A stretch of 41,633 bases of DNA from a virus (IMGVR_UViG_3300009285_003210:1-41633), one strand, 5' to 3'; shown: positions 4,870 to 41,633, counted from the first letter of the stretch. Notes: generated by a model not told the origin, from the letters alone. A program made the numbers and translations.

Positions 4870-4993
4870 GCTGTGGTTGGCTAAGAAGCTTCTTCCCGAA
4901 CATTATATGGTTGTCAAGGGCATACGCCATCCAGATATACAATTTGGCGATAGAACTGGCCCCGCAATGCCATTTAGGCAGAAGCTGGATTAA
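4856..4993 (+). CDS. Possible 45-residue basic protein
   Basis: A GTG start at 4856, preceded by a G-rich stretch (GGGGGTGG), opens a 45-codon frame beginning MKRLRLWLAKKLLPEHY and ending at TAA 4991-4993, three bases before the fibre gene. It overlaps the methyltransferase end by 14 bases and fills an otherwise empty gap, consistent with the close packing of this genome. The N-terminus looks like a short amphipathic basic helix. No homologous family is recognised. The main alternative is that the gap is simply leader for the fibre gene. Confidence 0.4.
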   Translation: MKRLRLWLAKKLLPEHYMVVKGIRHPDIQFGDRTGPAMPFRQKLD

Positions 4994-4996
4994 GAC

Positions 4997-7516
4997 ATGC
5001 CTTGGGCGATTCGTTCTTCGGGTGGCAAGTTTCAGGTCGTAAATGCCCAGACGGGTGATGTTAAGGGCACGCATGATACGCTCGAAGAAGCCAAAGCCCA
5101 GATGCGCGCGCTTTATGCCAATGTCAAGACAAGCGAAGAGATTACATTCGAAGAATATTCTATCATTGCCGGCGAAGAGCCGAAGATCACACAGGAACAA
5201 TACGCCGCGACGGCGGAGCCGCTGCTGACAGAAGAGGAATATAGGCGGGCGTCAGAACCGAAGATTACTGCCGAAGAGTTTCTTAAATCTCTCATCCCGC
5301 CAACGGTTCCTGGTCCAGCCGGTAAAATGGGCGCTACGGGGCCAATGGGGCCACAAGGCCCCCAAGGCCCGGCTGGCCCCCTAGGGCCGCGTGGCGAGGC
5401 CGGAGAGCCCGGCACAGCGGGTCCGCAAGGCAGTAAAGGAGACAAGGGTGACACTGGAGAACGAGGTGAGACGGGTGATCCCGGGGACAGAGGTCCGCAG
5501 GGCGATAAGGGTGATCCCGGATCGAAGGGCGATACCGGGGAGCGAGGCCCACGAGGATATCAAGGAATCCCTGGAAGAACTGGACCAAAGGGCGAAGTCG
5601 GAGAACGAGGGCCAGAAGGAAAGTCGGGGCCAGAAGGCCCGACGGGAAAGCCCGGTGCCCCCGGCATCAGCCCTACCATCGCAATCAATAGCGATCCACA
5701 AACGCCTTCTCTCAGATCGCTAGGATTTAGCGCAAACGAAGCTGCCCCTGGAAATCACTGGCATCACATGCCAGAGAGCAAGCACGCGCGTCGCCACAAC
5801 ATGCGGCTGAATATTGATCCTATCTTCCCTGCGAGTGGGACGGTTCAGGATTATGTGTTGGCCTTTGACGCGACAGCGCCTCTACTGATGAAGTGGATGG
5901 CGCAGTCTGGCGGAACAGGCGGCGGCACGCTAACGCTTAGCGATGTGATTCCGCAGGCCATAGGAACGGCAGGCAGCGCGGGCGATGGCGGCAGCGCGGC
6001 TCGTAGTAATCATGGGCATGCACACGGAACGATAGCCAGCGGGAACCATCACCCCGAATACAGCGGTTCGGCGCATAGTCATACAATTGCACATACTGAT
6101 CTTAGCGGCGTTACTTCTGACCAACACCACGCGCAAGCACATGCAATTGACGGCGCAGATCACAGCGGGACGCTGGCGTTCAGTGCGCTCAGCGGCACGG
6201 CCCATACACATTCTCCAGATCATGCAGCGGTTACGCTTGCGGCCAGTGCTGCCGGAATACTTGATCTTGCAGCACAGGCTTTAGGGTTTGATTCTCAGTC
6301 GGCAAACCAAGTTCTTGCTTCTCCTAATGGATCTTCTGGCACTCCGCAATTCCGTTCTCTCGGAACTGCTGACTTGCCATCGATCCCGCACTCATTCCTA
6401 TCGAGCGTAGGGGCGAACGACCACCACGCGCAGAGCCATGCTTTGACAAGCGGAGATCATACCGGCCAGCTTCCGTTCGGGTCTATTAGTGGTAGCGTTA
6501 CGGCAGCACAGCATGGCACGTTCTTAGCAGACAACCTGCACCCAGAATACTCTGGTTCTGCCCATACACATGCAGGCGGTGGGACGCACGCGCTGCTCGA
6601 TGGATCGACGCACTCCGATACACTTGTCGATACCGTAACGGACGGCGGCGTGATCATTGGCAACGTGACGCCGAAGTGGTCGAGCCTTGCAATCTCTATC
6701 CCGGCTGCGAACGTCCGCAACGTGCTGGGCGTAGATAACGGGGAACTACGGCCATCGTGGAAGGCCATCCTCGACGGCACGACCCCGGCGGCCATCGGCA
6801 CAGCAGTGGCAGGCACGGCACTGACCGCCTCCCACCGCGATCACGTCCACGCGACGGGTGCGGGGACACCCAGCACGCAAGCGTTCGGCGATGCGGCGGC
6901 GACGGGATCGGGGCCAGCGGCGTCGATGACCGACCACAAGCACGCGATGCCCGCAAACCCGGTGACGGCACACGAGTCCGCGTACGCCCATACGGACATC
7001 GCCGGGCATATCGCGGATGCTTCAGACGCTCACGGCGCTTCGGCCATCTCCATCCTCGACACGGCAGGCGACTTCACGGCGACGGACGTGGAGGGCGCGC
7101 TCGCCGAGCTGCAAACGGATGCCGAAGCGGCAGCGCACAGCCATGAGATTCCCGTGGTCGTGGACGGGGCGACCGCATCCACCACGGCTCCGTACGCGAT
7201 GGTGCGTATCCCGAACGCATGCACGATCGTCAGCGTCCACGTCAAGACGGCCGAGAACATCACCATCGGCGCGACGGCATGGATCGGCGACATCCACAAG
7301 ATCCTCGCCGCGAACGTCAATACGGACGGGCAGGGCACAACGATCTACGCCACACAGGGAAACCGCCCGACGATCACGAACGGCAACATGGGCAATCAGG
7401 CAACGACTCCCGACGTGACGGCGCTGGCGGACGGGGACTACCTCGCCTTCTACACCGATCAGGTTGGAACTAACGCGACATTCATTGCGATGGCGGTGGA
7501 GGTGAGTGCCCCATGA
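4997..7516 (+). CDS. Collagen-like, His-rich tail fibre / virion surface protein
   Basis: 839 residues in modules. Residues 1-43 are a small globular head (KFQVVNAQTGDVKGTHDT), of a kind seen at the ends of various phage virion proteins. Residues about 50-100 hold short acidic repeats (ITFEEYSI, ITQEQYAA, LTEEEYRR, ITAEEFLK). Residues about 106-223 are nearly perfect Gly-X-Y triplets, so a collagen-like trimeric rod. Next come His-rich repeats (NHGHAHG, GNHHPEYSGSAHSH, DQHHAQAHA), typical of metal-binding trimeric fibre shafts, then a C-terminal tip. Base composition shifts to high GC from about 6.6 kb, inside the gene, suggesting the tip was exchanged. The likely role is host binding or a head/tail surface fibre. 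Confidence 0.75.
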   Translation: MPWAIRSSGGKFQVVNAQTGDVKGTHDTLEEAKAQMRALYANVKTSEEITFEEYSIIAGEEPKITQEQYAATAEPLLTEEEYRRASEPKITAEEFLKSLIPPTVPGPAGKMGATGPMGPQGPQGPAGPLGPRGEAGEPGTAGPQGSKGDKGDTGERGETGDPGDRGPQGDKGDPGSKGDTGERGPRGYQGIPGRTGPKGEVGERGPEGKSGPEGPTGKPGAPGISPTIAINSDPQTPSLRSLGFSANEAAPGNHWHHMPESKHARRHNMRLNIDPIFPASGTVQDYVLAFDATAPLLMKWMAQSGGTGGGTLTLSDVIPQAIGTAGSAGDGGSAARSNHGHAHGTIASGNHHPEYSGSAHSHTIAHTDLSGVTSDQHHAQAHAIDGADHSGTLAFSALSGTAHTHSPDHAAVTLAASAAGILDLAAQALGFDSQSANQVLASPNGSSGTPQFRSLGTADLPSIPHSFLSSVGANDHHAQSHALTSGDHTGQLPFGSISGSVTAAQHGTFLADNLHPEYSGSAHTHAGGGTHALLDGSTHSDTLVDTVTDGGVIIGNVTPKWSSLAISIPAANVRNVLGVDNGELRPSWKAILDGTTPAAIGTAVAGTALTASHRDHVHATGAGTPSTQAFGDAAATGSGPAASMTDHKHAMPANPVTAHESAYAHTDIAGHIADASDAHGASAISILDTAGDFTATDVEGALAELQTDAEAAAHSHEIPVVVDGATASTTAPYAMVRIPNACTIVSVHVKTAENITIGATAWIGDIHKILAANVNTDGQGTTIYATQGNRPTITNGNMGNQATTPDVTALADGDYLAFYTDQVGTNATFIAMAVEVSAP

Positions 7517-7983
7517 CCGTACACCTCGCCACGCTCGCCGATGTCACCGCGCTCCGCAACCTCGCCTCGTCCGTCCGCAGCGATCTGGACGCCGACTGGC
7601 CGGGGGAGGACAACGCCTACCCCTTGCAGCGGCTCCGCGACTACGTGTCGAGCGGGCGGGCGATCGTGCTGGTGGACATCGTAGGTGGGGGGCTGGCGGG
7701 GGCGTCGATCTGGATACGACGCTCGGGCGCGTGGTGGATGCGGCTATTCATCACTGACCCGGCCATCAGCGCGTTGCAGCGCGGGCGCTCCATGCAGCGG
7801 ATGTTCCGGTTCGCGGCCGAGCATGTGCCACCTGACACGAAGCTGTGCGGGATCGGCAGGGCGGGCAGCGGGGCGGAAGCGTATCTCGCTGCCCGGTTGC
7901 CCTCGGTAGACAACCGGCAGGTCCGTGACGGATACGTGCTGTACTCGGGCACGGCAGCCGATCTGCTGGCGGCGGTCACATGA
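7513..7983 (+). CDS. GNAT-like N-acetyltransferase fold protein
   Basis: 156 residues beginning VHLATLADVTALRNLASSV, the usual first strand and helix of GNAT proteins. A central stretch (ALQRGRSMQRMFRFAAEH) sits where the acetyl-CoA pyrophosphate loop (R/Q-x-x-G-x-G/A) is expected, with RGRS as a weak match. The gene overlaps both neighbours by four bases (ATGA), between the fibre and a large surface-type protein, in the GC-rich island. Small GNAT-like proteins are often found beside fibre genes; whether this one modifies a virion protein or acts as an assembly factor cannot be told. Confidence 0.5.
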   Translation: MTVHLATLADVTALRNLASSVRSDLDADWPGEDNAYPLQRLRDYVSSGRAIVLVDIVGGGLAGASIWIRRSGAWWMRLFITDPAISALQRGRSMQRMFRFAAEHVPPDTKLCGIGRAGSGAEAYLAARLPSVDNRQVRDGYVLYSGTAADLLAAVT

Positions 7984-9527
7984 GTTTCGCCAACTTCTCT
8001 TGCGATCTGGTGTTCAGCGGTGAGACGCGCGATAGCGAGTGCGAGCGGGCGACTGGTTCGATTGCCACCACGGGGGACGCGACGGGGATCACGCTGGATG
8101 AAACCTCGCCAATCGCCGGGACGGGGATGCTCAACGTCGCGTTCAGCATCGCAAGCGCCCTGCTCCAGCAGAAGGCGCACATCCGGGCTCTCACCGGGAT
8201 AAACGTCTACGGCTACCACTTCCGCATGCGGCGGACGGGTTCGTTCACGGCGGATGTGCCGCTGCTGCTCAAGCAGAGCGCCGGGTACACGGTGCTGTAT
8301 ATCGACGACGCGGACAATCTGATCAAGGCGCAGAACTCCTCGGGCGTCGTAACGATGCAATCCACGACGGCCGTGCCGACGGCGGGCAGCATCGAAGTCT
8401 GGTTCATCATCGAGGTCGCCGGGAACAACGCATGGTTGTTCATCGACGGCGTGCAGGAGGCGTACGGGTACGTCAGCAACCAGCCTGACTATTTCTTCAA
8501 GAACAACGGCGGGTCGGGGCTAGGGGCCGACCTCAAGGTCGATGACATGTGCATGGTGTTCAGCAGCTCAGCGAACGATACGCCGGACAAGGTGCAATGG
8601 CCCCGGCTGAAGACGCTGGCGGCGTTTCCGATCCCATCAACCGACGGCGACTACACCGCCCCCTCGACGGCTACGGATACAGTGACGGCAGATACGGGTG
8701 GGGCGCACGACATCTCGAACGCTACCGGTGGGACGACACCGTGGGCCACAAATACGTGGGCCGGGCACACCGTCACGGTCACTATTGCCACGGTGACGTA
8801 TGAGTTGTACGTCGAGGCGAATGGCACGGACTGGCTGGACGGCAGGTGGTCTGACTATTACGGCACGGAGACGGTACCGATCAATGGGGGGGGGCGTACG
8901 GTCAACATCTACAGTGAGGACGGCTGGACGGGCGTAGGCGACGTGACGAACAAGGCGGACAACTGGGACGAGGACGAGTTGCCGGCCCACGACGGCGACA
9001 CATCGTATAACGGTCAGGGGGGCGGCGTGCTCGGCCGCCAGCTCTCGGAAGGCGAAACGCGAGCCGAGATCGGGCTTGCTACCGACGACGTGCTGTTCCG
9101 CGTCTTCGGGCGCGGGGTGTCGCGCTACGGTTCAGCGCCCAAGACGCCTGATTACGCCACGCAGCCGCACGTCATCCTCAAGGGGGCGTCGAACAACAAC
9201 AAGGTCGGCATGCCAAACTCGCAGGTCGGGCATAGCATCACGGCCACCTACGGCGGGTTCACCAGCGCCGCCATCAAGTACCCCGGCAATCCCGGCACGG
9301 ACGAAAACGGCTGGAACTCGTCCGGCAGTCCGGCCGACTTCAATGCGTGCTGGTTCGGCATGGTGAGCGGCCCCTCCAGTTGGACCGGCTCGAACGGCTT
9401 CCGGGCGACGATGCTCTGTCTCGTCATCCTGTTTTACCCAGCGTCCAGCGGGCTACTGCCGCTGGCAACGCGCGAGTCGCTGGTCATGCCCCGCCGTACT
9501 ATCCATAATTTCCTAGTCACGAGGTAA
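7980..9527 (+). CDS. Virion-surface-type protein with a LamG/concanavalin-like N-terminal part
   Basis: 515 residues, not recognised as a named family. The first about 195 residues read like a concanavalin/LamG jelly roll: alternating strands, VEVWF-like and AWLFIDGVQEAYGY segments (compare 'v.iYvDG..v.'), and a DDMCMVF strand where LamG domains have 'iDdi.v'. The second part is rich in Gly, Thr, Asp and Asn (TADTGGAHDISNATGGTTPW; GDVTNKADNWDEDELPAHDG), as in secreted or virion adhesins. Overlap with the GNAT gene and position in the GC-rich fibre island suggest a receptor-binding or capsid/tail decoration protein. The domain call is by eye. Confidence 0.5.
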   Translation: MSFANFSCDLVFSGETRDSECERATGSIATTGDATGITLDETSPIAGTGMLNVAFSIASALLQQKAHIRALTGINVYGYHFRMRRTGSFTADVPLLLKQSAGYTVLYIDDADNLIKAQNSSGVVTMQSTTAVPTAGSIEVWFIIEVAGNNAWLFIDGVQEAYGYVSNQPDYFFKNNGGSGLGADLKVDDMCMVFSSSANDTPDKVQWPRLKTLAAFPIPSTDGDYTAPSTATDTVTADTGGAHDISNATGGTTPWATNTWAGHTVTVTIATVTYELYVEANGTDWLDGRWSDYYGTETVPINGGGRTVNIYSEDGWTGVGDVTNKADNWDEDELPAHDGDTSYNGQGGGVLGRQLSEGETRAEIGLATDDVLFRVFGRGVSRYGSAPKTPDYATQPHVILKGASNNNKVGMPNSQVGHSITATYGGFTSAAIKYPGNPGTDENGWNSSGSPADFNACWFGMVSGPSSWTGSNGFRATMLCLVILFYPASSGLLPLATRESLVMPRRTIHNFLVTR

Positions 9528-11118: not shown

Positions 11119-11703
11119 ATGGTGCGCAGAGGAGAAATCCCCTGGAATAAGGGTAAGCCTTGGCCGGATGAAGTTAAGGCTAAGATTAGTATTGGTAATC
11201 GCAAGCCTAAGCCAAGATTACGTCCATTGTCTAAAGAGTTCTACGAGAACGTATCCAGGAAATTAACAGGCATTATTCGTTCCCCTGAAACGAGAGAGAA
11301 GATAGCGAGAGCTAGGCGAGGTACGCACCCATCAGAGGCAACTAGAAAAAAGTTAGCTCTGGCGGGCAAACGGAGAGTGATTTCGCCGGAACATTCAGAA
11401 AAGATGAAGGCTGGTTGGCGAGAATGGGCGGGAAAATGGCCTAAGCCTGAAACTAAGCTAGAGACTCGTCTATATGCACTTCTTAACAGATCCGGGTATG
11501 CGTACCAGAAGCAGAAGCAGTTTGGATCAAGAATCGTGGATGCTTATGTGCCTGAACTCAATTTAGCTTTTGAGGCAGATGGTGCCTATTGGCATAAAGA
11601 TAAGAAGGCGCAACTTATTCGTGATGAGTATTTGATTTCAAAGGGGATTGAAGCGGTCGTACACCTTACTGAAATTGACTTAAAGGGCGTGACGCTTGAC
11701 TAA
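11119..11703 (+). CDS. Free-standing homing endonuclease (NUMOD3 repeats + Vsr-like nuclease)
   Basis: 194 residues. The N-terminal half holds NUMOD3-type DNA-binding repeats (GKPWPDEVKAKIS; SPETREKIARARRG; SEATRKKLALAGKRR; SPEHSEKMKAGWREW). The C-terminal domain is Vsr/EDxHD-like: ETRLYALLNRSGYAYQKQ supplies the first acidic residue, then VDAYVPELNLAFEADGAYWH carries the D...E.DG..WH core. Such enzymes cut a specific site and spread their own gene by recombination. It lies between two virion genes, its end overlaps the next start, and it is more AT-rich than its neighbours, all fitting a mobile insertion. A stable hairpin precedes it. Confidence 0.8.
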   Translation: MVRRGEIPWNKGKPWPDEVKAKISIGNRKPKPRLRPLSKEFYENVSRKLTGIIRSPETREKIARARRGTHPSEATRKKLALAGKRRVISPEHSEKMKAGWREWAGKWPKPETKLETRLYALLNRSGYAYQKQKQFGSRIVDAYVPELNLAFEADGAYWHKDKKAQLIRDEYLISKGIEAVVHLTEIDLKGVTLD

Positions 11704-16927: not shown

Positions 16928-17206
16928 ATGGCCACTATTCGACCATTCGTACAAGGGGTAGGAGCTTCTCAGGAAATTGGAACTGAAATTGCTAAGATGT
17001 TCGGCCTAGATCCAAGGCGCGTTTCGGCAGTGCATATTAATTTGACGGCCGGAGAAGTTGCCAAAATCACAGTGGAATGTAATGCTCAGCTTGAAGAGAT
17101 TACTTCTATCGTCGAAAAAATGCGGCGCTATCGCTGGGTAGAGCATAACGGCACAATGGATTTCCGAGAAAATGGCCTTATCATGGAGGAGAAGGCAAAT
17201 GCCTAG
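16928..17206 (+). CDS. Hypothetical 92-residue protein
   Basis: Starts directly after the preceding stop and ends overlapping the next start by eight bases. It reads FGLDPRRVSAVHINLTAGEVAKITVEC, a strand pair with turn, then a helix (EEITSIVEKMRRYRW). Small proteins with this 'DP.rv..v.i....ge...v.v' wording occur in phage structural regions, but no function is known to me. It sits between two glycosyltransferases and may be an unrelated structural gene around which the cassette was inserted. Confidence 0.5.
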   Translation: MATIRPFVQGVGASQEIGTEIAKMFGLDPRRVSAVHINLTAGEVAKITVECNAQLEEITSIVEKMRRYRWVEHNGTMDFRENGLIMEEKANA

Positions 17207-18596
17207 TTTTATTCCGCGAGAGAAGACCGGGCTCAATATTCTTTATCACGCGAACGCCCCGTGGGCGAAAACCGGATATGGCGTTCAGTCCAATAGTCTG
17301 TTGCCCCGCCTCGCCAAGCTTCCCGGAATTAACGAAATCGCACTCCTCGCGTACTACGGCATCGCGGGTGGAGTGAGCGAACAGGAAATTGGCCTCGACG
17401 TGCCGGTTGAACACATCAAAGTCAAGTGTTACCCGGCGCGAAGCGACCCGTGGGGCAATGACGTCATTGCCGATCACACGATGGCCTTCAATGCTGATAT
17501 GGTCATCACGCTGTTTGATCTGTGGCCGCTGGCCGCCGAATTCGGCTGGACTGGGGCGCGCTGGACTCCTTGGTTTCCGATCGACCACGAGCCTGTTCCG
17601 CCCGGCGTGCTTGAACGGAGCATGTCGACATACGAGAATCTTGTTTACAGCAAGAGCGCCGTAGAAGAACTCGCTCGGAACAACGTCAAGCACACGTATA
17701 TCCCGCACGGGGTTGAGACGACACTCTATAGGCCGCTTGATGATGAAGCGCGGAAAGATGCGAAGGAATGGCTGGGCTTTCCGCGCGATTGCTTCCTGAT
17801 CGGAACGGTAGGCGCGAACAAGGGCTACCCACCGCGCAAGGGCTGGAACGAGATGTACACGGCCATTGCGGAATTCATGCGCACTGCGCCGGAAGCCGAG
17901 AATGTCTACTTCTATCAGCACAGCCTGCTGACGGGCGAACACGGCGGTCCGGATTTGCAGCAGATGGCGACAGACTTTGGGCTTTCTGATAAGATCCGGT
18001 TCGCGAACCCGTATCGGCTCCAAAGCGACGGTATGACAAACGAAGAGATGAACCGCGTATATAATGCAATGGACGTGTTCATCCTGCTGAGCCGGGGTGA
18101 AGGGTTTGGCCTGCCGATTCTTGAGGCGCAATCCTGTGGTACGCCGGTGATCGTTACCGATTGGACGGCATGCCGTGAATTGGGCGAAGTGGGGTACAAA
18201 ATCCCGATATTGCACCGTGAATGGACGCCGCAACGCAGTTTTTGGGGCATTGCCGACCCCGTGAAGGCCGCACAGGCGCTCCACGACGTCCACCACGCTT
18301 GGCTGGCCAATAAGCAGGGCTGGGGCACCACCTATAAGAACCTGCGAGCCGCTGCGAGGCAATTTGCACTGCCGTATGACTGGCAAACGCTTGTTGATAC
18401 GTACTGGGCTCCCTTCATCCAGCGCATGTGGGATGAAACGCGCCCGAGCATCTGGGGGCCGATGCAGAAGGTCTGGGAGAACAAAGACTTCGGCATTCCA
18501 GATGTAGAGGAAGCACCAGAGCGTCAGGTGATTGAAGTTGATCAATCTTCTTCTGTCAATGGGGCAAGCCCGGTAGAGGAGCCAGTAAAGGTTTAG
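17199..18596 (+). CDS. Glycosyltransferase family 4 protein
   Basis: 465 residues from the ATG at 17199, chosen because GGAGGAG lies just upstream; an ATG nine codons earlier lacks a proper site. GT-B fold: NILYHANAPWAKTGYGVQS in the acceptor domain; in the donor domain FLIGTVGANKGYPPRKGW, the FILLSRGEGFGLPILEAQSC block (E-x7-E with both acids present) and GTPVIVTDWTACRELGEVG. These are classic GT4 motifs. The acceptor may be a virion protein or a modified DNA base. It is the strongest of the three glycosyltransferase candidates. A 454-codon frame runs antisense to it and is judged a shadow. Confidence 0.85.
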   Translation: MPSFIPREKTGLNILYHANAPWAKTGYGVQSNSLLPRLAKLPGINEIALLAYYGIAGGVSEQEIGLDVPVEHIKVKCYPARSDPWGNDVIADHTMAFNADMVITLFDLWPLAAEFGWTGARWTPWFPIDHEPVPPGVLERSMSTYENLVYSKSAVEELARNNVKHTYIPHGVETTLYRPLDDEARKDAKEWLGFPRDCFLIGTVGANKGYPPRKGWNEMYTAIAEFMRTAPEAENVYFYQHSLLTGEHGGPDLQQMATDFGLSDKIRFANPYRLQSDGMTNEEMNRVYNAMDVFILLSRGEGFGLPILEAQSCGTPVIVTDWTACRELGEVGYKIPILHREWTPQRSFWGIADPVKAAQALHDVHHAWLANKQGWGTTYKNLRAAARQFALPYDWQTLVDTYWAPFIQRMWDETRPSIWGPMQKVWENKDFGIPDVEEAPERQVIEVDQSSSVNGASPVEEPVKV

Positions 18597-31501: not shown

Positions 31502-31708
31502 ATGAATGTTAATCCCAATATCAATGCGGCAACACACCGCGGGGGAGTGGCATTACTGCCGCTCGTCACAGGGCTTTTTGCCGTCATCATCAAGGCGCTG
31601 AACGATCAGGAGTTCAATGAGACAACGTGGTGGCTGCTCGGTTCAGCGGCGGCAACGAACGCGCTGACGGTGTATCTGAACTGGATCAGGGGCACGAGCC
31701 CGCAATGA
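31502..31708 (+). CDS. Small holin-like membrane protein
   Basis: 68 residues from ATG 31502, chosen because AGGAGG lies directly upstream; an ATG six codons earlier would place the site inside the gene. Two hydrophobic segments are visible (GVALLPLVTGLFAVIIKAL and TWWLLGSAAATNALTVYLNW), separated by a short charged loop, as in class II holins. Holins make the membrane lesion that lets the endolysin reach the wall. Position between an XhlA-like protein and an amidase supports this. Confidence 0.65.
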   Translation: MNVNPNINAATHRGGVALLPLVTGLFAVIIKALNDQEFNETTWWLLGSAAATNALTVYLNWIRGTSPQ

Positions 31709-31950
31709 GTCCGTGCCCGCGATGCGGCCGTGCCAACGCCCTCGTCCGCGAGACGGATCGCTGGGGGTCGTATCTCAACTGCTGGACGTGCGGCTTCAAC
31801 AAGGAGGAGATCGACGGCGAGCCGTTTGCGTGGTCGCCGCACAATCCGCACAGGGAGTATCTTGATCCTGTCGTGACGGCGGGCGAGATAGAGCGGGCGA
31901 AGCGGGAGTATCAGCGGGCGTACAGGGCGCGGAAGCGTGCTACCGCTTGA
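31705..31950 (+). CDS. Zinc-ribbon protein in the lysis module
   Basis: 81 residues from ATG 31705, overlapping the holin stop by four bases (ATGA). Two cysteine pairs (CPRC at residues 4-7 and CWTC at 26-29) form a zinc ribbon. The C-terminal half is a basic helix (EIERAKREYQRAYRARKR). This could bind nucleic acid. Its last 14 bases overlap the amidase start. It belongs to a second GC-rich patch. Confidence 0.6.
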   Translation: MSPCPRCGRANALVRETDRWGSYLNCWTCGFNKEEIDGEPFAWSPHNPHREYLDPVVTAGEIERAKREYQRAYRARKRATA

Positions 31951-33147: not shown

Positions 33148-33327
33148 ATGCTGGTAATAAATCGCAAGACGGAAGAATCGATTATCATCGATGTGCAGGG
33201 AACGCCCATCTACGTGTATATTCTTCGTACGTCGCGCGGGCTTGCTAGCGTTGGGATCGAAGCGCCGAAGGAGTTTCACGTCTTACGAAGTGAACTTCCT
33301 AGGCACTTGCGGAGCGGAAGCTGCTAG
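33148..33327 (+). CDS. csrA: CsrA-like carbon storage / translational regulator
   Basis: 59 residues: MLVINRKTEESIIIDV... then GIEAPKEFHVLRSELPRH. It matches CsrA/RsmA in length and in its two best-conserved regions: the N-terminal 'MLvLtRkvgEsi.I' and the C-terminal 'vGIeAPkev.VhReEi'. The RNA-contact residues L2/I4/R6 and the arginine equal to E. coli R44 (here R47) are kept. CsrA dimers bind GGA motifs near ribosome-binding sites and change translation. The leader itself has GGA sites. It is the last plus-strand gene and its end overlaps the end of the convergent TSCPD gene by 45 bases. GGAGG lies at proper distance before the ATG. Confidence 0.85.
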   Translation: MLVINRKTEESIIIDVQGTPIYVYILRTSRGLASVGIEAPKEFHVLRSELPRHLRSGSC

Positions 33328-33675
33328 TTCTTTCTCAAGCACCTGTGCTACGAGATCAAGAAGGCTGCTGCACTTGGCGATTCCAAGACCCTTTACCGGG
33401 CCTGCGGGAGGGAAGGACTGCCCCTTAAACTTGTCAATAATAACTTGGACGGGGACGCCATATTGGAGCGCGATGCTTGTCTGGGTTGCCCAGCCGTCCA
33501 GCATACCCTGAAGCGTCGTTCCTTGCTTGCCGATCCCTACGAATATTTCCGCGATTTCGTGTCCGCCTTCGTAGAAATTCACGCGCACGTATAGATCAAT
33601 ATCGCCCTGTTCTGAGTAGACGACAAGATGATGTATGCGCCCGCCACGGGTATCGGGGAGCTTATTCCTTACCAT
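33283..33675 (-). CDS. Stand-alone TSCPD-domain protein (class II ribonucleotide reductase-related)
   Basis: 130 residues. It follows the C-terminal region of NrdJ-type ribonucleotide reductases: KLPDTR at the start, YVRVNFYEGGHEIAEIFVGI, GKQGTTLQGMLDGWATQTS, IALQYGVPVQVIIDKFKGQ and PAGPVKGLGIAKCSSLLD. In NrdJ this region lies C-terminal to the catalytic barrel and is often followed by a redox Cys pair, which is missing here. No reductase catalytic domain is in the window. It might modulate the host or phage reductase or act in nucleotide binding. It is the last gene of the minus operon, overlapping the upstream GNAT gene by 14 bases. Confidence 0.75.
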   Translation of the reverse strand: MVRNKLPDTRGGRIHHLVVYSEQGDIDLYVRVNFYEGGHEIAEIFVGIGKQGTTLQGMLDGWATQTSIALQYGVPVQVIIDKFKGQSFPPAGPVKGLGIAKCSSLLDLVAQVLEKELAASAPQVPRKFTS

Positions 33676-34682: not shown

Positions 34683-35291
34683 CTATGTAGCCCTCCGTGG
34701 CATCGTACTGCTTTCGATCCCCTGTAGTGTAATCAGGCGGCTGGCGGTCTCCCATGCGCGCTGGTAGCTGGCGCACATACCCTTTGCCGTCTCATGGATC
34801 ATATCGGCTTCGATATACATGCGCCGGGCTTGTCGCATCGTTTCACTATCGGCAAGCACCTGCGCTTCCTTTGACTTCTCGCTCCCATCTAGCGAAGCGG
34901 TGCGCACAGCCATGCCCGCCTCGTAGGCATTCTTCAGCGCGTTGCGCCTGCCCGAGATCAAGCCAATCTGCGCTTCCAGAAATGAGACATAGCCGCCGAA
35001 TCGTTGGAGCAGTTCATAGAGATTGCTCGTGTCGTTCAATAAATCATGGCCGGGGACGGGGATGCCTACCTGGCGAATCCAATCATCCTGTGTCTTAAAG
35101 CATGACCACCACCCCCACCCGCGTTTATTGATGATGACACTGATAGGCAGCACGGCATCCTGCGCGCCGTCTTTGGTCAGCGTGCGCACTTCTTCCCACA
35201 GGTCATCTTGAGAATCCACATCCCAGATCTGGCCTAGTTCATCGTGGATTTGGATTTTGGTAGGAGGCGGAGCAGGCTTAGCTTTAGGCAT
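34683..35291 (-). CDS. Hypothetical 202-residue protein
   Basis: A Pro-rich start (MPKAKPAPPPTKI), a mixed domain with GLKTQ-like and WGWWSCFKTQDDWIRQVG wording, then long helices (NLYELLQRFGGYVSFLEAQI; MRQARRMYIEADMIHETAKG). The helical half could oligomerise. Placed between a zinc-ribbon protein and a small Cys-pair protein in the recombination operon; a role as recombination mediator or annealing factor is possible but has no direct support. Confidence 0.55.
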   Translation of the reverse strand: MPKAKPAPPPTKIQIHDELGQIWDVDSQDDLWEEVRTLTKDGAQDAVLPISVIINKRGWGWWSCFKTQDDWIRQVGIPVPGHDLLNDTSNLYELLQRFGGYVSFLEAQIGLISGRRNALKNAYEAGMAVRTASLDGSEKSKEAQVLADSETMRQARRMYIEADMIHETAKGMCASYQRAWETASRLITLQGIESSTMPRRAT

Positions 35292-35523
35292 CTTTCCCCT
35301 CAGTTAATGGGCCAATCGTTCCCATTGGGTATGGGCGTAATTCATTCCTGCGCTTACATTCTGGTTCTGTTTGGCCGCACACGCCGCAACGCCATCCTCG
35401 AATAAGATAATTCTTCACTTCTTCTTCTGTAAGATATTTTGAATATGGCCCGGTGGCCAGTTCTTCTCCGCTGCGAAACACATGTTTTGCATAGAGCCTA
35501 TTTGCGGGTTCTATTTCTAACAT
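35284..35523 (-). CDS. Hypothetical small Cys-rich protein
   Basis: 79 residues: a short N-terminal region, LTEEEVKNYLIRGWRCGVCG, and ECKRRNELRPYPMG. CGVC plus a later Cys could bind metal. The ATG shares a base with the stop of the Cas4-like gene upstream, and the end overlaps the next gene by eight bases. No family recognised. Confidence 0.5.
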   Translation of the reverse strand: MLEIEPANRLYAKHVFRSGEELATGPYSKYLTEEEVKNYLIRGWRCGVCGQTEPECKRRNELRPYPMGTIGPLTEGKDA

Positions 35524-36281
35524 TATTCTTCCCCGAATTCAAACCCACCGCACATGTGGAAAAAGGAGCATTGTTTATCGTTTAGCATAGGCGTTCTCCA
35601 CGGCAACTGTCGCGATTCTACAAGTTGAACGATGTTCAGCAACCGCGTTTCGATGCTGCGCCACAGGTCACCATCAAATTTCTTGATGTAAGACTTTGGC
35701 ATTTGGTCATTCTTATTCTCATACACGATCTGCGCCTGTAGCACGCCTTTTGCGAACATGTATGGGTGTACCTGGATTACGTGCTCGGGCTTAGGGGCGC
35801 GCAGTTTGTCCCACTCGTCTGTATTCATGGTCTTAAACTCAAACACCGCAATTTCATTCGTGGTGGGGTTGCGGATAAGATCATCCATCTCGCCGCGAAT
35901 GTGCAGATGAGGGATTTCTATGTAGCGTTCAGCACTGGCCAATTTTCGTTCCTTCGGGCTGCCGCCCCAATGTTGAAACAGGCTCAGCCCGGCCTCATGC
36001 AGATACCGCTTCCAGTCTTCATCGCGGCTTGTGCCGTTATCAAAGATGCGCTGTAGCCGAGCCCTGACGGTAGATTTGCCCGTTTGCCCCATGTACTGGA
36101 ACGCGAGCAGTGCATCACATGGATTACCGAGCGCGCTCGGGTGAAACCAGCCGGGGTCGTAGCGCAGTTCTTTACTGCTCTCTAGGTGATCATCTACATG
36201 TGCTAGGAGCCATCCGCCTGTGCGCTGTGCGACGACACGGCTAAGTGGCGAATCTTTAGGAATTGTCTGTTTCTTTGCCAT
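35523..36281 (-). CDS. Cas4/RecB-like PD-(D/E)XK nuclease
   Basis: 252 residues. The nuclease core is clear: FHPSALGNPCDALLAF near residue 46, IRGEMDDLI with the catalytic Asp (about 133-134), VFEFKTM with E148 and K150, and QVHPYMFA (motif IV). A Cas4-type C-terminal Cys region is present (QCSFFHMC), but only three cysteines are seen (C55, C238, C244), whereas a 4Fe-4S cluster needs four. It should process DNA ends during recombination. Cas4-like genes are common in phages and do not imply a CRISPR system; none is present. Start overlaps the upstream zinc-ribbon gene by 26 bases. Confidence 0.75.
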   Translation of the reverse strand: MAKKQTIPKDSPLSRVVAQRTGGWLLAHVDDHLESSKELRYDPGWFHPSALGNPCDALLAFQYMGQTGKSTVRARLQRIFDNGTSRDEDWKRYLHEAGLSLFQHWGGSPKERKLASAERYIEIPHLHIRGEMDDLIRNPTTNEIAVFEFKTMNTDEWDKLRAPKPEHVIQVHPYMFAKGVLQAQIVYENKNDQMPKSYIKKFDGDLWRSIETRLLNIVQLVESRQLPWRTPMLNDKQCSFFHMCGGFEFGEE

Positions 36282-36462
36282 GTCCCGTTTCTTCAGAGCC
36301 TTTACCCTGCCTTATGCCAACGAGGGGTTCTGGTGTCTTGAATGCGCCTTTGGGGAATACAGGGTGTTGAGCCTTATTACACCCGCGACAGCGTTTTGGG
36401 CCTAATCGTAAGATAGAATTGACTAATGTCGTTTTGCAGCCGCAGCGGCATTTACATTTCAT
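36256..36462 (-). CDS. Small Cys-rich zinc-binding-like protein
   Basis: 68 residues starting MKCKCRCGCKTTLV with KRCRGCN about 15 residues later, a dense set of cysteines suited to one zinc site. The rest (HPVFPKGAFKTPEPLVG..., KGSEETGHGKE) looks disordered. It overlaps neighbours on both sides (4 and 26 bases). Function unknown; small zinc-binding proteins of this kind often bind nucleic acid. Confidence 0.5.
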   Translation of the reverse strand: MKCKCRCGCKTTLVNSILRLGPKRCRGCNKAQHPVFPKGAFKTPEPLVGIRQGKGSEETGHGKETDNS

Positions 36463-36710
36463 TCTTCTTTGCCAAGTGCCTTACCAATCGCGCTAAGTTT
36501 CCCCGCCATATCTATCCCTTGACTGACCCGAATTGTCAGCCCGGCAAGGTCTTCGACGTCCAGTTCGGCGGCCTGTTCTACGGTAAGGTTTGTTCTATCA
36601 ACGATGAAGAGCAGCGTTGCTTCCAGATCGCCATTGGTGGCACGCTGCAAGAGGATTGCCTGTTTGAGCGTGAACGGCTTGGTGCTGATCTCGATATCTT
36701 CAACGTTCAT
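36459..36710 (-). CDS. Hypothetical 83-residue protein
   Basis: A beta start (NVEDIEISTKPFTLKQAI), helix (QRATNGDLEATLLFIVDRT), and VEQAAELDVEDLAGLTIRVS. It vaguely resembles small tail-assembly-type chaperone folds, with an N-terminal strand and an acidic helical rest, but it lies in the recombination operon. Overlaps the Vsr-like gene by 11 bases. Not assigned. Confidence 0.5.
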   Translation of the reverse strand: MNVEDIEISTKPFTLKQAILLQRATNGDLEATLLFIVDRTNLTVEQAAELDVEDLAGLTIRVSQGIDMAGKLSAIGKALGKEE

Positions 36711-37047
36711 TGAATGCCTTCCTCCGTTCTGCCGCTGACCCAGCTACCGCTTCAAGAAATGAGATAACAGATGCTTCGATATCTGAGCGTACCAGTTCGG
36801 CCGGAATGTGCATGATTGGGAGGAAGTATTCATTCAGCAGCCTTGCATCCCGCGCCGCATCCTTCTTCGGGCTATGGCTTGGCCCATCTATCTCCAACCC
36901 GGCATGAAACTCGCCCAGATAGATGTCAATGCTAAATGGGTGGAATGCCACTTCGCTTTCATAGCTAATCTGCATCTGGTCTAAGATGCGTTCGACGCGA
37001 CGATGAGGGGCGCTTCTTGTCGTCTCGTCTTGGCTATGAATCGCCAT
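36700..37047 (-). CDS. Vsr/DUF559-like endonuclease
   Basis: 115 residues. A PD-(D/E)XK core of the Vsr/DUF559 type: RVERILDQMQISYESEVAF, then SIDIYLGEFHAGLEIDGPSH with D41, E52, D54 and H58, and a DAARDARLLNEYFLPIMHI strand. Such proteins nick or cut double-stranded DNA; in phages they are recombination nucleases or homing enzymes without a separate DNA-binding domain. It overlaps recA by 14 bases, which favours a stable role in the operon over a recent mobile insertion. Confidence 0.7.
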   Translation of the reverse strand: MAIHSQDETTRSAPHRRVERILDQMQISYESEVAFHPFSIDIYLGEFHAGLEIDGPSHSPKKDAARDARLLNEYFLPIMHIPAELVRSDIEASVISFLEAVAGSAAERRKAFNER

Positions 37048-37987
37048 TTGTCAGTTCATTCTTCAGGCGCTCAAACTCTTCTGGATTTTCGATAAGATGC
37101 TGGCGCATGGCTGCCTTCCCGAGTTTCTTCACCTCGCCATATACATAATACGGCAGCCGCGCAATGATGATTTTGCGCTCCAGCGCCTCATCAATGAAGG
37201 ATTGCACCATGTCGATCTGGCCCTTGAAGTGGAAGGGGATCTGAACGCTGGCACTCTGAATCCCTCCAACCTTATTCTTTTTCGCAATAATCTCCATGAT
37301 GAACCCGACGCGCTCTTCCTTCTCCTTCAGCCAGCCCTCGCGCCGGGTTCGTAGCGTCACGTGATTACTATGGCGCATAGCCCAGCCGCCGGGGTAGTTC
37401 TCTTCATACCCGCCGATGTTGGCGCGCATCTGGTTCAGAAGAATAAAGACGATATCGTCCATCTGGGGTGTAACCGCTGCGAAGAAGTGCGCGATCAGCT
37501 TGGCATGGGTGCCGACGAAGTGCTGTTCGCTTCCCTTTTCCGGTTCGACCATCGCGCGCGGCATCATAGCGGCAATACTATCAATCCCGACAAGGCCGAG
37601 TTCGGGTTCGGCGTTGATGACGGCGAGGATCACATCAATACCTTCTTCGCCATACATCGGCTGCGCCACCATGAGCTCATCTACATCTACGCCGCTGGCG
37701 GCCCACCATCGCGCGTCATACCCGCGCTCGTGGTCCAGGATCAGACACTTTGGCCTGTGTTCACTCCGCTGTTGACTGGCGACGGCGTATTGGAGCAGCA
37801 CGGTCTTGCCGGTGCTTTCTGGCCCTACGATCTGTGTATAACGCCCGGCAGGCCAGCCGCCCCCTAACAGTTCATCAAACCCAGGAATATCGGAAGGCAG
37901 CCGCCTGATGACAAGCCTTGGATCATTCCCCTTCATGATCAGGCCTTCGGCCAGAAGGCCATCAATCGTTGTCGGAATCTTTGTCAT
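37034..37987 (-). CDS. recA: RecA-family recombinase
   Basis: 317 residues, slightly shorter than bacterial RecA. Walker A GPESTGKT at 55-62; Walker B region LGLVGIDSIAAM at about 130-141; the L1/L2-like parts PRAMVEPEKGSEQ and NQMRANIGGYEENYPGG; and GWAMRHSNHVTLRTRR, matching 'ggkALkfy.s.Rl..rr'. It should form filaments on single-stranded DNA and catalyse strand exchange in phage replication and repair. The upstream gene ends 12 bases before, the downstream one overlaps, so it is within the operon. Confidence 0.85.
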   Translation of the reverse strand: MTKIPTTIDGLLAEGLIMKGNDPRLVIRRLPSDIPGFDELLGGGWPAGRYTQIVGPESTGKTVLLQYAVASQQRSEHRPKCLILDHERGYDARWWAASGVDVDELMVAQPMYGEEGIDVILAVINAEPELGLVGIDSIAAMMPRAMVEPEKGSEQHFVGTHAKLIAHFFAAVTPQMDDIVFILLNQMRANIGGYEENYPGGWAMRHSNHVTLRTRREGWLKEKEERVGFIMEIIAKKNKVGGIQSASVQIPFHFKGQIDMVQSFIDEALERKIIIARLPYYVYGEVKKLGKAAMRQHLIENPEEFERLKNELTNGDS

Positions 37988-38508: not shown

Positions 38509-38757
38509 TCTAAATCCTCTATGTTCCTTTCCTGTTGGCGGTCTGCCATGAATCTTCCTAAAATCATGACAGATTTCGCATACCATCGCGACTTCTACTT
38601 TCTTGTGATGAAGATAATATGATTCATCTGCGCGGATCTGTGTATTTCGTTGTCGGAACTTAGTCTCTGCAGAAACTATCTTATCGCCCCTATAGGAATT
38701 TGAATCCCCTTCGTCTGCAAAGACTCTTATATGGCGCGTACTAAGTCTTCGCGGCAT
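38509..38757 (-). pseudogene. Likely remnant of an HNH-type homing endonuclease
   Basis: An 83-codon open stretch joined in frame, without a stop, to the next gene. It carries DKIVSAETKFRQRN, nearly the same as GKIVSIETRLRQR in the neighbouring HNH gene; the DNA match spans about 33 bases. The first HNH half is absent, while CEICHDFRKIHGR could be the leftover of a zinc centre. The best reading is a decayed copy or fragment of a homing endonuclease. An alternative is a real N-terminal extension of the following gene. Confidence 0.4.
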
Positions 38758-38918
38758 AACGATATCTCCTCATGGTGCCCTGACCATTCTTAATACGCAG
38801 ATTATATCCCCATCGGCCCTTGCGTGCGATATTGGCTCTACGCCTTCGTTCTTCTTCACCTATAGAGGCCCACCAAGCTCGTTGCCGGAGCCTAGTCTCT
38901 ATAGAAACTATCTTACCG
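38654..38918. repeat. Pair of about 33-bp direct repeats with a quasi-palindromic core
   Basis: Copies at about 38654-38686 and 38886-38918 share CGGA-C-TAGTCTCT-AGAAACTATCTTA with few differences. The cores TAGTCTCTGCAGAAACTA and TAGTCTCTATAGAAACTA pair with their own reverse complement at 16 of 18 positions, and the central two bases change from GC to AT without breaking the symmetry. Both encode K-I-V-S-x-E-T on the minus strand. Confidence 0.55.
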
Positions 38919-39178
38919 GCATGGTGGTGATTGGCATGTTCGCCACGAGTCATAATCTTCAAGTTTCTAAGCCGATTGTCATGCTTATTGTGGTTGAGAT
39001 GATGAACTGTCTCGGATTTTAGAAGTACGCGGCCAAGGTGTTCCGCCATAATGAGTCTATGTTTGTTCACGTGCTTTAGGCCAGGAAACAAGGGATGATT
39101 ATAGAGCATCATTCTAATATACCCGAAGGTATTGTCCTCGTATTCACCGCCCTTGTAAGCCGCGTACTTATCTACCAT
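38741..39178 (-). CDS. HNH homing endonuclease
   Basis: 145 residues. HNH core: KHRLIMAEHLGRVLLKSETV, then VHHLNHNKHDNRLRNLKIM and EHANHHH, the classical HNH_3 pattern with the paired His, the Asn and the last His. After it, a basic tail. It lies between the hypermodification-type gene and a truncated relative and is AT-richer than the flanks, so it is likely a mobile gene. It overlaps the upstream gene by 11 bases and the fragment downstream by 17. Confidence 0.8.
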   Translation of the reverse strand: MVDKYAAYKGGEYEDNTFGYIRMMLYNHPLFPGLKHVNKHRLIMAEHLGRVLLKSETVHHLNHNKHDNRLRNLKIMTRGEHANHHHAGKIVSIETRLRQRAWWASIGEEERRRRANIARKGRWGYNLRIKNGQGTMRRYRYAAKT

Positions 39179-40034
39179 ATCTGTATTTTCTTAATCCTAC
39201 TACCGGTCGCCCTTCCTCAATATACTGTTCCGCACGCAATTTCTTATCGTATTCACACAGTGTCATCTCAATATCGCGCATCTCTAATTCAAGGTCTGTG
39301 AAATGATGAGCGTTACACAGAAGAATATGCATCATGGCAATAGCGGCATCCCTGCCGCGTATCGCATCCGTGCCGTGGATTCGTTGCAGCCCTCGGATTG
39401 CTCCGGGGCCGGGGTTCGCCCATGTCATGATATCCGGCGCATCCTGCAAGAGAGACGTATGCCGCAGGTCAGTTACGATCTCATAGGCAACAAACGGACC
39501 GATACCCGGCATGCGCTGTAGATGCAGCCATACGTTTTCTAATGTCCAGCGTGAAATCCTGCGGATGAATTCCTTGCGGTGTTCCCAGAAGTAATCAAGG
39601 CGATCACAAACACCTTCAAGCTTATTCTTGCCCTTAAGGTCTGTTCCGGCTATCAGGTAGGCGTTGTTGAATATCTTATGCCCCATCTGTTGGTCGACAA
39701 TGAGGCCGCTGGCGACGCCGCCGTTGCGATGAATTGTCCAATCGCGCGACCAGCCGATAGTCTTCAACGTAGGCGGCCAGTTGAAGAACCGGGCTACGGC
39801 CATGTTGAAGATCAATACTTCGGGTGGCGCTTTGCGATTGCGCCAGTTCTGCGCGATCCATTTTGTGACTGTATCCTGCTCGCGGTACACGTTGCAGAAG
39901 TAATAATCGCGCAAGATTGGGTCTTTCGTCCACGGCCACGGCGCTCCGGCTTCTTTCTTGAGATAGATAGCCTGCCGCTCTTCCATGAAGCGGAAGAACC
40001 CCTCAACGCTGCCGTTTCGCGTAACTGTACTCAT
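39168..40034 (-). CDS. DNA base hypermodification protein (5-hmdU DNA kinase / thymine pyrophosphorylase family)
   Basis: 288 residues. It matches the family first described as alpha-glutamyl/putrescinyl thymine pyrophosphorylase and later shown to include 5-hydroxymethyluridine DNA kinases: FFRFMEERQAIYLKKEAG, PWPWTKDPILRDYYFCNVYR with the following DTVTKWI, a helix-hairpin-helix (MPGIGPFVAYEIVTDL, about 175-190), and WANPGPGAIRGLQRIHG. In phages of the SP10 or ViI kind these proteins activate 5-hydroxymethyluracil in DNA for further substitution. Here it follows a thymidylate synthase-like gene, fitting thymine hypermodification. The family is well supported; kinase activity is inferred. 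Confidence 0.75.
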   Translation of the reverse strand: MSTVTRNGSVEGFFRFMEERQAIYLKKEAGAPWPWTKDPILRDYYFCNVYREQDTVTKWIAQNWRNRKAPPEVLIFNMAVARFFNWPPTLKTIGWSRDWTIHRNGGVASGLIVDQQMGHKIFNNAYLIAGTDLKGKNKLEGVCDRLDYFWEHRKEFIRRISRWTLENVWLHLQRMPGIGPFVAYEIVTDLRHTSLLQDAPDIMTWANPGPGAIRGLQRIHGTDAIRGRDAAIAMMHILLCNAHHFTDLELEMRDIEMTLCEYDKKLRAEQYIEEGRPVVGLRKYRYGR

Positions 40035-40297
40035 TTCATGTCTTCAATCCACCTATGTAGTACGCGAAGCTCTTGTTGTAAATACGCTTCCGGCGCTGTT
40101 TCGGCACGAAACCATAATCCTTCATCTTTAGCCTGTTCGTCGGCTAAGCCCCACAGTGGGCGGAGTTTCTCTTCAATAAAATCCTTCTCGTACTGATCAA
40201 GAATCTTTAACGTAGCTATCGAATCCTGCGGTAAGACTTTTGGTTTTAATGGGTCATACCAGCCAAATGCTCTCAGGAGATCTTCTCGTGTCATCAT
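40031..40297 (-). CDS. Hypothetical 88-residue protein
   Basis: Starts MMTREDLLRAFGWYDPLKPK, then helices (LKILDQYEKDFIEEKLRPLW; YLQQELRVLHRWIEDMK). It is acidic-helical and overlaps both neighbours by four bases: the thymidylate synthase-like gene upstream and the hypermodification-type gene downstream. It may assist that pathway, but no family is recognised. Confidence 0.55.
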   Translation of the reverse strand: MMTREDLLRAFGWYDPLKPKVLPQDSIATLKILDQYEKDFIEEKLRPLWGLADEQAKDEGLWFRAETAPEAYLQQELRVLHRWIEDMK

Positions 40298-41633
40298 GGT
40301 TTTTCATCTATCCAAATCTGTGCCGCCTTGAGCCAGTCAGAATAACTATCGACATGGCGGCAGTCATCCCAGATTGTTTCTAGCCGCCCAAGCCGATACC
40401 CGCGCAAGAAGTCATTCGCGAACATTAGGAACGGGATTGGCCCTTCGTAGTCGTCGCCGCTTTCCAGAGCCGCGTTACATGCTTCTACTAAAGTATCAAG
40501 CGGAATGGCCTCTGTAAACGCCAGCCTATGCACTGGCATTTCTGGCAGCGGCTCAAAGCCGTGCGCCAGCATGTTCTTCGTAATATCCCAGTTTGGTCCC
40601 ATGCCTTCGCCGCCCGTATAGACATGCAGACTGTTTGAAAGGTGTGTCTGTGTCCCCATCTCTACACCAAGCCGCGCAGCCAGCCAATCTAGCAAGATGC
40701 CAAACGTAGGGATATTGACGGCGTAGAGCCCCCAGTGCAGGTCGTTAGACCTATTGATGACGGTCATATGCAGCTTGCCATCGCGAAGCTTGAACATGAT
40801 CATGTCATTGCAGTTATGTACTAAGACCCCGGAGCCAACAAAGAAATTGTGGTTATCTTCTACAATTAGATCGTATACCGGCTCCGCGACAGTCAATGTC
40901 TTTATACTGACAACCTTATGATTATTTTCAACGGCAGATACATAATTTGACCAACTCCCCCATCGCACTTGAATAGTGCTGGGGCTGAATGTGCCACGGT
41001 ACTTCTCCCAGAAGTTCCTATATGTGATCTTTCCTTCTTCTTCAAGGAGGCGGCGGCCCATACGCACCAATTCAAATTCAGTTAGCTTTTTACTCGAATG
41101 ATATGAAGAAGGGATAGAGAATTCATGCCCTTGGTTAGTAGAGCGATGGTACTTAGCGTGTTTACCATGCTCAATCAGAACTAAATTATCTTTGTGATTG
41201 TCCATGCCATTGTGATTATCATGATGAACATCATGACCTGCCGGAAGCGGCCCGTTTAGGAATTCATAGTATTCACGGTGAACTGCCCGGCGATTTTTCC
41301 CTGCCCAATTCTTTGTAATGTTTTTGATGAATGCTTCGCGCCCTTTGTAACTAAATAGTCGGATAGGAATTAGGCTATTGCCCTCGTTTAGTTCATCGGC
41401 CCGCACCCAAGAATATGTTGTGGTAGAAGCGTGCTTCGCTTCATGCCCAAGTCGTTGGCGATTCTTGATAAGAACCTTGTGATCGGGAGTCAGCTTGATC
41501 GTAGAGCCATCATCGAGTGTAAGTAGAATAAGTTGCTTGCAGCCAGATTCTTTGCCAACGGCCCATTTGATTTCAATTTCGTCTGTATCTTCGTTAAGAG
41601 TGTAGACGGGGTATGTTCTTCCAACAAGCTTGC
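40294..41633 (-). CDS. Thymidylate synthase-like protein interrupted by an intein (5' end outside window)
   Basis: The frame is open to the right window edge. After the intein, the C-terminal extein (40294-40812) is thymidylate synthase-like: CNDMIMFKLRDGKLHMTVI begins with the catalytic Cys; RSNDLHWGLYAVN keeps the RS.D...G....N block, the Asn that favours uracil over cytosine substrates; SLHVY keeps the His and Tyr of D.H.Y, with Ser in place of the Asp. So it may make dTMP or, as in hypermodifying phages, 5-hydroxymethyl-dUMP. After about 40660 the rest differs from typical enzymes (FANDFLRGYRLGRLETIWDD). The N-extein is not visible. Confidence 0.75.
   Translation of the reverse strand, partial: KLVGRTYPVYTLNEDTDEIEIKWAVGKESGCKQLILLTLDDGSTIKLTPDHKVLIKNRQRLGHEAKHASTTTYSWVRADELNEGNSLIPIRLFSYKGREAFIKNITKNWAGKNRRAVHREYYEFLNGPLPAGHDVHHDNHNGMDNHKDNLVLIEHGKHAKYHRSTNQGHEFSIPSSYHSSKKLTEFELVRMGRRLLEEEGKITYRNFWEKYRGTFSPSTIQVRWGSWSNYVSAVENNHKVVSIKTLTVAEPVYDLIVEDNHNFFVGSGVLVHNCNDMIMFKLRDGKLHMTVINRSNDLHWGLYAVNIPTFGILLDWLAARLGVEMGTQTHLSNSLHVYTGGEGMGPNWDITKNMLAHGFEPLPEMPVHRLAFTEAIPLDTLVEACNAALESGDDYEGPIPFLMFANDFLRGYRLGRLETIWDDCRHVDSYSDWLKAAQIWIDEKP
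40813..41633 (-). other. HNH-containing intein, N-terminus outside window
   Basis: Block B is seen near 41500 (LTPDHKVLI, T-x-x-H form). The middle holds an HNH endonuclease domain (HREYYEFLNGPLPAGHDVHH, then DNHNGMDNHKDNLVLIEHG). The end is a classical intein C-terminus: VYDLIVEDNHNFFVGSG followed by VLVHN, with the next residue Cys. Splicing would join the exteins at that Cys, which is also the catalytic residue of the thymidylate synthase-like host protein. Block A with the first Cys lies beyond the edge. Confidence 0.85.

Follow-up and report, generated by a model that had tools for sequence, protein, structure and literature searches.

A putative dUMP hydroxymethylase with an intein inserted at its catalytic cysteine, encoded with an HMUDK_hel protein at the edge of an uncultured virus contig

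The window analysed here is the entire 41,633-nt record of an uncultured virus (IMGVR_UViG_3300009285_003210), a contig that is itself a fragment. Its modification genes lie at the right end on the minus strand, the first of them running off the contig edge, and are transcribed in the order thymidylate synthase (TS)-type gene, 88-aa ORF, 288-aa ORF and HNH endonuclease. The features are the following:

40813..41633, minus strand: C-terminal part of an intein, with block B (TPDH) and the C-terminal block ...VYDLIVEDNHNFFVGSGVLVHN (PF14890 match to the open frame, 56.8 bits)
41158..41289, minus strand: HNH homing-endonuclease domain within the intein (PF13392 HNH_3, 28.9-29.5 bits, over the cut-off)
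40294..40812, minus strand: C-extein, a TS homologue of the dUMP-hydroxymethylase type (PF00303, phrog_5131, PDB alignments, residue table)
40031..40297, minus strand: 88-aa ORF from the ORF list, with an ATGA 4-nt overlap with both neighbours
39168..40034, minus strand: 288-aa protein of the HMUDK_hel/aGPT-Pplase1 family, helical, without a P-loop, with an HhH-like motif (MPGIGPFVAYEIV) (PF18723, 152 bits)
38741..39178, minus strand: free-standing HNH endonuclease (PF13392, 34.6 bits; phrog_7545, E 9e-16)

The first three genes overlap by 4 nt at each joint, while the HNH gene and the 288-aa ORF share 11 nt. The original prediction described the TS-like gene and the 288-aa ORF as an adjacent, overlapping pair; the pair is real, but the two do not overlap directly, the 88-aa ORF (no match in Pfam and PHROG searches) standing between them and sharing 4 nt with each. 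The HNH endonuclease is probably a mobile neighbour, outside the pathway discussed below. On the same strand as the modification genes, the region 34683-37987 contains genes encoding a UvsX-like RecA (37034-37987) and a Cas4-like exonuclease (35523-36281).

The frame of the TS gene is open to the contig end over 445 codons and holds intein, HNH and TS domains together. Residues 1-273 of the open frame match PF14890 (intein splicing domain, 56.8 bits), inside which HNH_3 is nested, and the homology to TS starts only past the sequence ...GVLVHN/CND (the slash marks the junction), leaving 172 residues of TS as the C-extein. An ORF at 40294-41406 (GTG start, 370 aa) was considered as the TS gene and rejected, since the frame continues to the contig end and the intein lies upstream of TS; the 370-residue enzyme assumed in the original prediction, which missed the intein, is in fact the 3' part of the intein plus the 172-residue C-extein. 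The alignment and the PF14890 match (56.8 bits) reveal block B, block F/G, the terminal HN and a Cys at position +1. In PDB alignments residue 1 of the C-extein falls on Cys146 of the E. coli enzyme and Cys198 of the L. casei enzyme, i.e. the nucleophile. Uninterrupted homologues mostly read KD[LTIV]PCN (D-x-P-C-N) at this site, which places the insertion between the Pro and the catalytic Cys; consequently, the Cys that ends splicing is the same Cys that attacks dUMP. In the window phage the N-extein and the first splicing block (block A, with Cys1 of the intein) lie beyond the contig end. The residues T..H and H-N/C are invariant between the window intein and three inteins inserted at the same site, and the window intein is predicted to splice. 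With the 5' half of TS off the contig, one could also imagine a dead gene, i.e. a decaying intein or a pseudogene at the contig edge; however, the 445 codons are open, and block B, the terminal HN, the HNH residues and the active-site residues of the C-extein are all intact, which makes this alternative highly improbable.

The same insertion site was found elsewhere. A DNA pattern for HN/CN ... ND..WG, run over the IMG/VR collection as an exact-pattern search that misses variants, returned seven matches, six of which represent TS genes interrupted by an intein at this very residue (contigs labelled L098, L100, L101, L102, L103 and L104). L098, L100 and L102 are near-identical, so that together with L101, L103, L104 and the window about five lineages are represented. 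Complete N-exteins ending in KDLP/C are present in L100, L101 and L102, with the same N-junction in the truncated L104, and block A with Cys1 occurs in all four; the inteins comprise 291 aa in L100 (and in the near-identical L102) and 325 aa in L101. The window intein has the splicing residues and the HNH insert in common with the same-site inteins, at 28-34% identity. An exact-pattern search for an intein in canonical ThyA (Cys-His) gave no match in viral or GTDB contigs, and the six matches of the hydroxymethylase intein pattern in GTDB contigs were discarded as chance, all lacking TS. Among 77 TS genes located beside hel (the HMUDK_hel gene) in a further contig set none is clearly intein-sized. 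Three apparent matches to the intein-TS junction were obtained in annotated phages; Rhodoferax phage P26218 and phage Simon were examined and their TS is uninterrupted. An exact 20-mer of the C-extein, used to seek an overlapping contig in IMG/VR, found no match. As judged from these pattern searches, the catalytic-Cys intein site is rare and recurrent, a small number of other uncultured phages sharing it. The inteins of mycobacteriophage ThyX, a flavin-dependent TS (PMC5050341), and phage ribonucleotide reductase (RNR) inteins likewise occupy active-site motifs of nucleotide-metabolism enzymes, but the host protein in the window is a predicted pyrimidine hydroxymethylase of the ThyA fold, whose catalytic nucleophile doubles as the +1 Cys. 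In L101 the region 4466-9213, upstream of hel and the intein-containing TS gene, encodes UDP-galactopyranose mutase (PF03275), a sulfotransferase (PF03567), a GT1-like protein, a weak match to TAGT and an APS-kinase-like P-loop protein, a gene set that may point to DNA or virions decorated with a sulfated or otherwise unusual sugar.

The TS-type sequence matches PF00303 with 27.8 bits and phrog_5131 with an E-value of 7e-24. Compared with E. coli ThyA, T4 gp42 and SPO1 gp29, the window extein exhibits Cys-Asn instead of Cys-His and RSND instead of RSCD, retains Asn177 (absent from T4 dCMP hydroxymethylase) and lacks the C-terminal tail of ThyA. The expectation that the uracil-selecting Asn is kept was thus correct, the residue being aligned with E. 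coli Asn177, and all the residues by which we recognise a dUMP hydroxymethylase on the C-extein (the catalytic Cys, Asn177, Cys-Asn and RSND) are present. The match to gp29 of Bacillus phage SPO1, annotated as dUMP hydroxymethylase (46.8% identity across 79 aa that surround the catalytic Cys), is among the strongest in annotated phages, and the two share the signature RSNDLHWG...N; the D-x-P-C-N signature was read in SPO1 gp29 and in the relatives of the window, whose own D-x-P is off the contig. SPO1 differs in that its TS is uninterrupted; no TAGT was detected in its record. In T4 dCMP hydroxymethylase Asp145 activates water for hydroxymethylation (PMC6400193). The equivalent Asp would stand at -3 from the Cys (E. 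coli position 143), a position that lies off the contig in the window. In an alignment of 14 full or near-full environmental and M6-type homologues 13 have this Asp, the exception being L010, and SPO1 gp29 and the ViI-like TS have it as well. Taken together, Cys-Asn, RSND, Asn177, the Asp at -3 of the relatives and the SPO1 pattern point to dUMP hydroxymethylation as the best reading of the residues, and to an enzyme other than the housekeeping ThyA.

The 288-aa ORF (39168-40034, minus strand) was confidently identified as a member of PF18723 (HMUDK_hel; 152.2 bits against a cut-off of 25, E 2.5e-44, profile positions 4-274 of 281) and of phrog_2396 (E 3.6e-53); a profile search, named in the original prediction as able to put the protein outside its family, therefore puts it inside. 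The invariant residues R20, W35, N48, R51, E52, D54, D189, D201, R214, C260, E261 and K264 are all kept. The AF2 model is all-helical (pLDDT 87.6), and a Foldseek search of BFVD with this model reported members of the same family (E 1e-13 to 3e-5), among them an SP10 protein named 5-hmdU DNA kinase. The best fold matches in the PDB are weak (E 0.2-1, the best 0.21) and include a 5-PmdU glycinyltransferase (8z2m), HhH DNA glycosylases and a queuine salvage enzyme; a sequence search against the PDB gave no match and a profile search only one chance match, to a globin. hel may be a glycosylase-like, base-flipping protein.

The original prediction regarded this protein as the kinase that activates the base. 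The Pfam name of PF18723 is indeed "5-hmdU DNA kinase, helical domain", and the SP10 protein, 637 aa in length, contains the hel fold, so that hel can be fused to a kinase. The 288-aa protein, however, has no Walker A motif (G-x4-GK[ST]), and the P-loop 5-hmdU DNA kinase PF18748 is a different gene in M6-like and ViI-like phages: PF18723 stands beside a separate PF18748 kinase in MP1412, Sonora, Ab18 and M6, and in a ViI-like phage hel and the kinase are 50 kb apart. Moreover, a comparison of the hel and kinase profiles was not significant (P 0.75), and 41 of 44 relatives contain hel without detectable PF18748. It is therefore very hard to credit that the protein is itself the kinase; by sequence it is a PF18723 member and not itself a P-loop kinase. 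Searches of the contig for PF18748 and of the window for PF18724 (ADDT, aGPT-Pplase2) gave no match, and a comparison of the hel and ADDT profiles was not significant.

Phage M6 and the phages of the ViI group are experimentally known for thymidine hypermodification, with a dUMP-hydroxymethylase-type TS and HMUDK_hel at the core of the pathway. The hydroxymethylase-type residues and HMUDK_hel of the window belong to this core, and TS and hel were both found in nearly every relative examined, which supports the thymine-hypermodification pathway proposed from the outset. The cassette of Pseudomonas phages M6 and MP1412 (Yuavirus) resembles the window in combining a TS with Cys-Asn, RSND and Asn177 and HMUDK_hel in one operon; unlike the window, M6 lacks an intein and encodes Nmad5, a P-loop kinase, a radical SAM protein, a PLP enzyme and ADDT close by, whereas the window contains only hel and TS on the contig, in reversed gene order, with the intein at the catalytic Cys. 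The genes of the M6-like cassette are named Nmad5, aGPT-Pplase1, nucleotide kinase, rSAM, PLP and aGPT-Pplase2, aGPT-Pplase1 and the nucleotide kinase being distinct genes (PMC9476957). From the gene order given there, PF18723 corresponds by position to aGPT-Pplase1, and our searches confirmed the PF18724 amino-acid:DNA transferase in MP1412, Sonora and Ab18.

We collected 44 further hel-bearing relatives, picked by similarity to the family of the window and comprising fragments and near-copies; TS was detected in 43 of these 44, TAGT (PF20691, 34-95 bits) in 36 and the kinase in three, one record having both TAGT and the kinase. Among the first ten hel contigs the kinase was matched in three and TAGT in five. 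The usual gene order in the relatives is primase-helicase-hel-(small genes)-TAGT-TS. In the hel tree most TAGT-type sequences form one well-supported group and the M6-type kinase-associated sequences another, while the window hel is on a long branch within a mixed group, not firmly in either. Since TAGT accompanies hel in 36 of the 44 and the kinase in three, hel probably serves as a common partner for 5-hydroxymethyluracil (5-hmU) DNA, irrespective of the second enzyme. As a separate observation, an operon of the type primase (AEP-TOTE)-UvrD helicase-hel-TAGT-dUMP hydroxymethylase is widespread in uncultured phages (L002, L005, L006, L009 and L120-L199, e.g. L123), suggesting sugar-bearing 5-hmU in these phages, and in L006 (6865-9373) genes for an FkbM-type methyltransferase, a radical SAM/SPASM protein and TAGT lie between hel and TS, for which a multi-step sugar base is possible.

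The glycosyltransferases of the window had been proposed to finish the modified base. The sole Pfam-supported glycosyltransferase of the window (17172-18596, plus strand) is of the GT4 type, not a DNA-base glycosyltransferase family, and is located among late structural genes; a PF20691 search found no TAGT in the window. The proposal finds no support in these particular genes but is reasonable at the level of the family, TAGT being present in the operons of most relatives. The interval 2004-4869 (plus strand), flanked by the portal gene and the gene for a collagen-like tail fibre, contains a sugar C-methyltransferase-like gene (PF08484/PF13489), a family-less 315-aa ORF and a second methyltransferase gene; the sugar-methyltransferase-like genes belong to no known DNA-base family. 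Other genes of the window include a DUF559/Vsr-like endonuclease, which also matches NUMOD3 weakly, directly ahead of the gene for a Mu-like protease (11119-11703, plus strand), probably a homing endonuclease, a weak match below the cut-off to the restriction-alleviation protein Lar (31627-31950, plus strand) and a stand-alone TSCPD-domain protein (33283-33675, minus strand; PF12637, 49.6 bits).

With no gene for the second-step enzyme (kinase, ADDT or TAGT) on the contig, a fragment, several final bases have to be weighed. It is quite possible, if somewhat short of an even chance, that 5-hmU is glycosylated to a base-J-like sugar base by hel and a TAGT whose gene would lie on the missing genome part. 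T-even phages use TAGT to transfer sugar to DNA bases (PMC13216743); among the 44 relatives, TAGT accompanies hel in 36, usually in the order hel-TAGT-TS, and the window hel is closest in identity (46%) to a TAGT-type sequence, that of L120. These operons share hel and TS with the window, but the latter is without TAGT, and the substrate of the T-even TAGT is glucosylated hmC; furthermore, the relatives are a sample picked by similarity, the long branch of the window hel is in a mixed group, and the order with TS upstream of hel resembles that of the kinase-bearing L014. An amino-acid-type hypermodified thymidine as in M6 or PaMx11, with the kinase and an amino-acid:DNA transferase encoded on the missing part, is also a possibility that we entertain tentatively: hel is the aGPT-Pplase1 of the M6-type cassette, and in the group L012-L014, whose TS is ~55% identical to that of the window over 66 residues, TS and hel are found in L012 and L014 and the P-loop kinase in L013 and L014. 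Against it, the kinase, ADDT, PLP and radical-SAM genes are all absent from the contig. The original prediction had suggested a search for PLP and amino-acid transfer genes; on the contig neither was found. Finally, the similarity to gp29 agrees with a phage like SPO1, whose DNA contains 5-hmU without further modification (PMC6449724), or the enzyme could be an ordinary TS, hel in either case being a leftover. This is improbable, considering the kept invariant residues of hel and the kinase or TAGT that most relatives pair with it, and an ordinary TS is opposed by Cys-Asn, RSND and the absent ThyA tail.

Our preferred explanation, to which we assign a probability of roughly 0.7, is that the locus represents one end, cut off by the contig edge, of a phage operon for making 5-hmU DNA and modifying it further, and that it encodes an intein-split dUMP hydroxymethylase together with hel. 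The first gene would be translated into a hydroxymethylase precursor in which the HNH-bearing intein separates the conserved Pro from the catalytic Cys. This intein would have to splice out with the catalytic Cys as its +1 nucleophile before any attack of this residue on dUMP, so that the unspliced precursor would be catalytically dead. The mature enzyme is predicted to convert dUMP and methylene-THF to 5-hm-dUMP, to be incorporated instead of thymidine. The role envisaged for hel comes next: to bind 5-hmU in the DNA, or to flip it, together with a second enzyme acting on the hydroxyl. This enzyme would be either a P-loop 5-hmdU DNA kinase, leading to amino-acid hypermodification of the M6 kind, or a TAGT glycosyltransferase, adding a sugar.

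The thymine-modification gene pair itself is of a known kind; the new elements are an intein that recurs at the catalytic Cys and the association of hel, TAGT and TS. We speculate that splicing at the recurrent site gates the onset of DNA modification, that hel is no part of a kinase but a general recognition or base-flipping protein for 5-hmU DNA, pairing with a kinase or with TAGT, and that the product of the hel-TAGT-TS operons is 5-hmU bearing a sugar, which would be the phage equivalent of base J, although we consider it rather doubtful that all three hold jointly. Sugar-bearing 5-hmU in phage DNA was unreported as of 2019 (PMC6449724), and for TAGT homologues without alpha- or beta-glucosyltransferase a 2026 paper lists the function as unknown (PMC13216743). 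If true, the proposal would correct the role implied by the much-used name HMUDK_hel, which would not be the kinase, and suggest 5-hmU as the substrate of these TAGT homologues. It would also offer a system in which the control of DNA modification by splicing can be tested, one and the same cysteine being the +1 residue of the intein and the nucleophile of the host enzyme.
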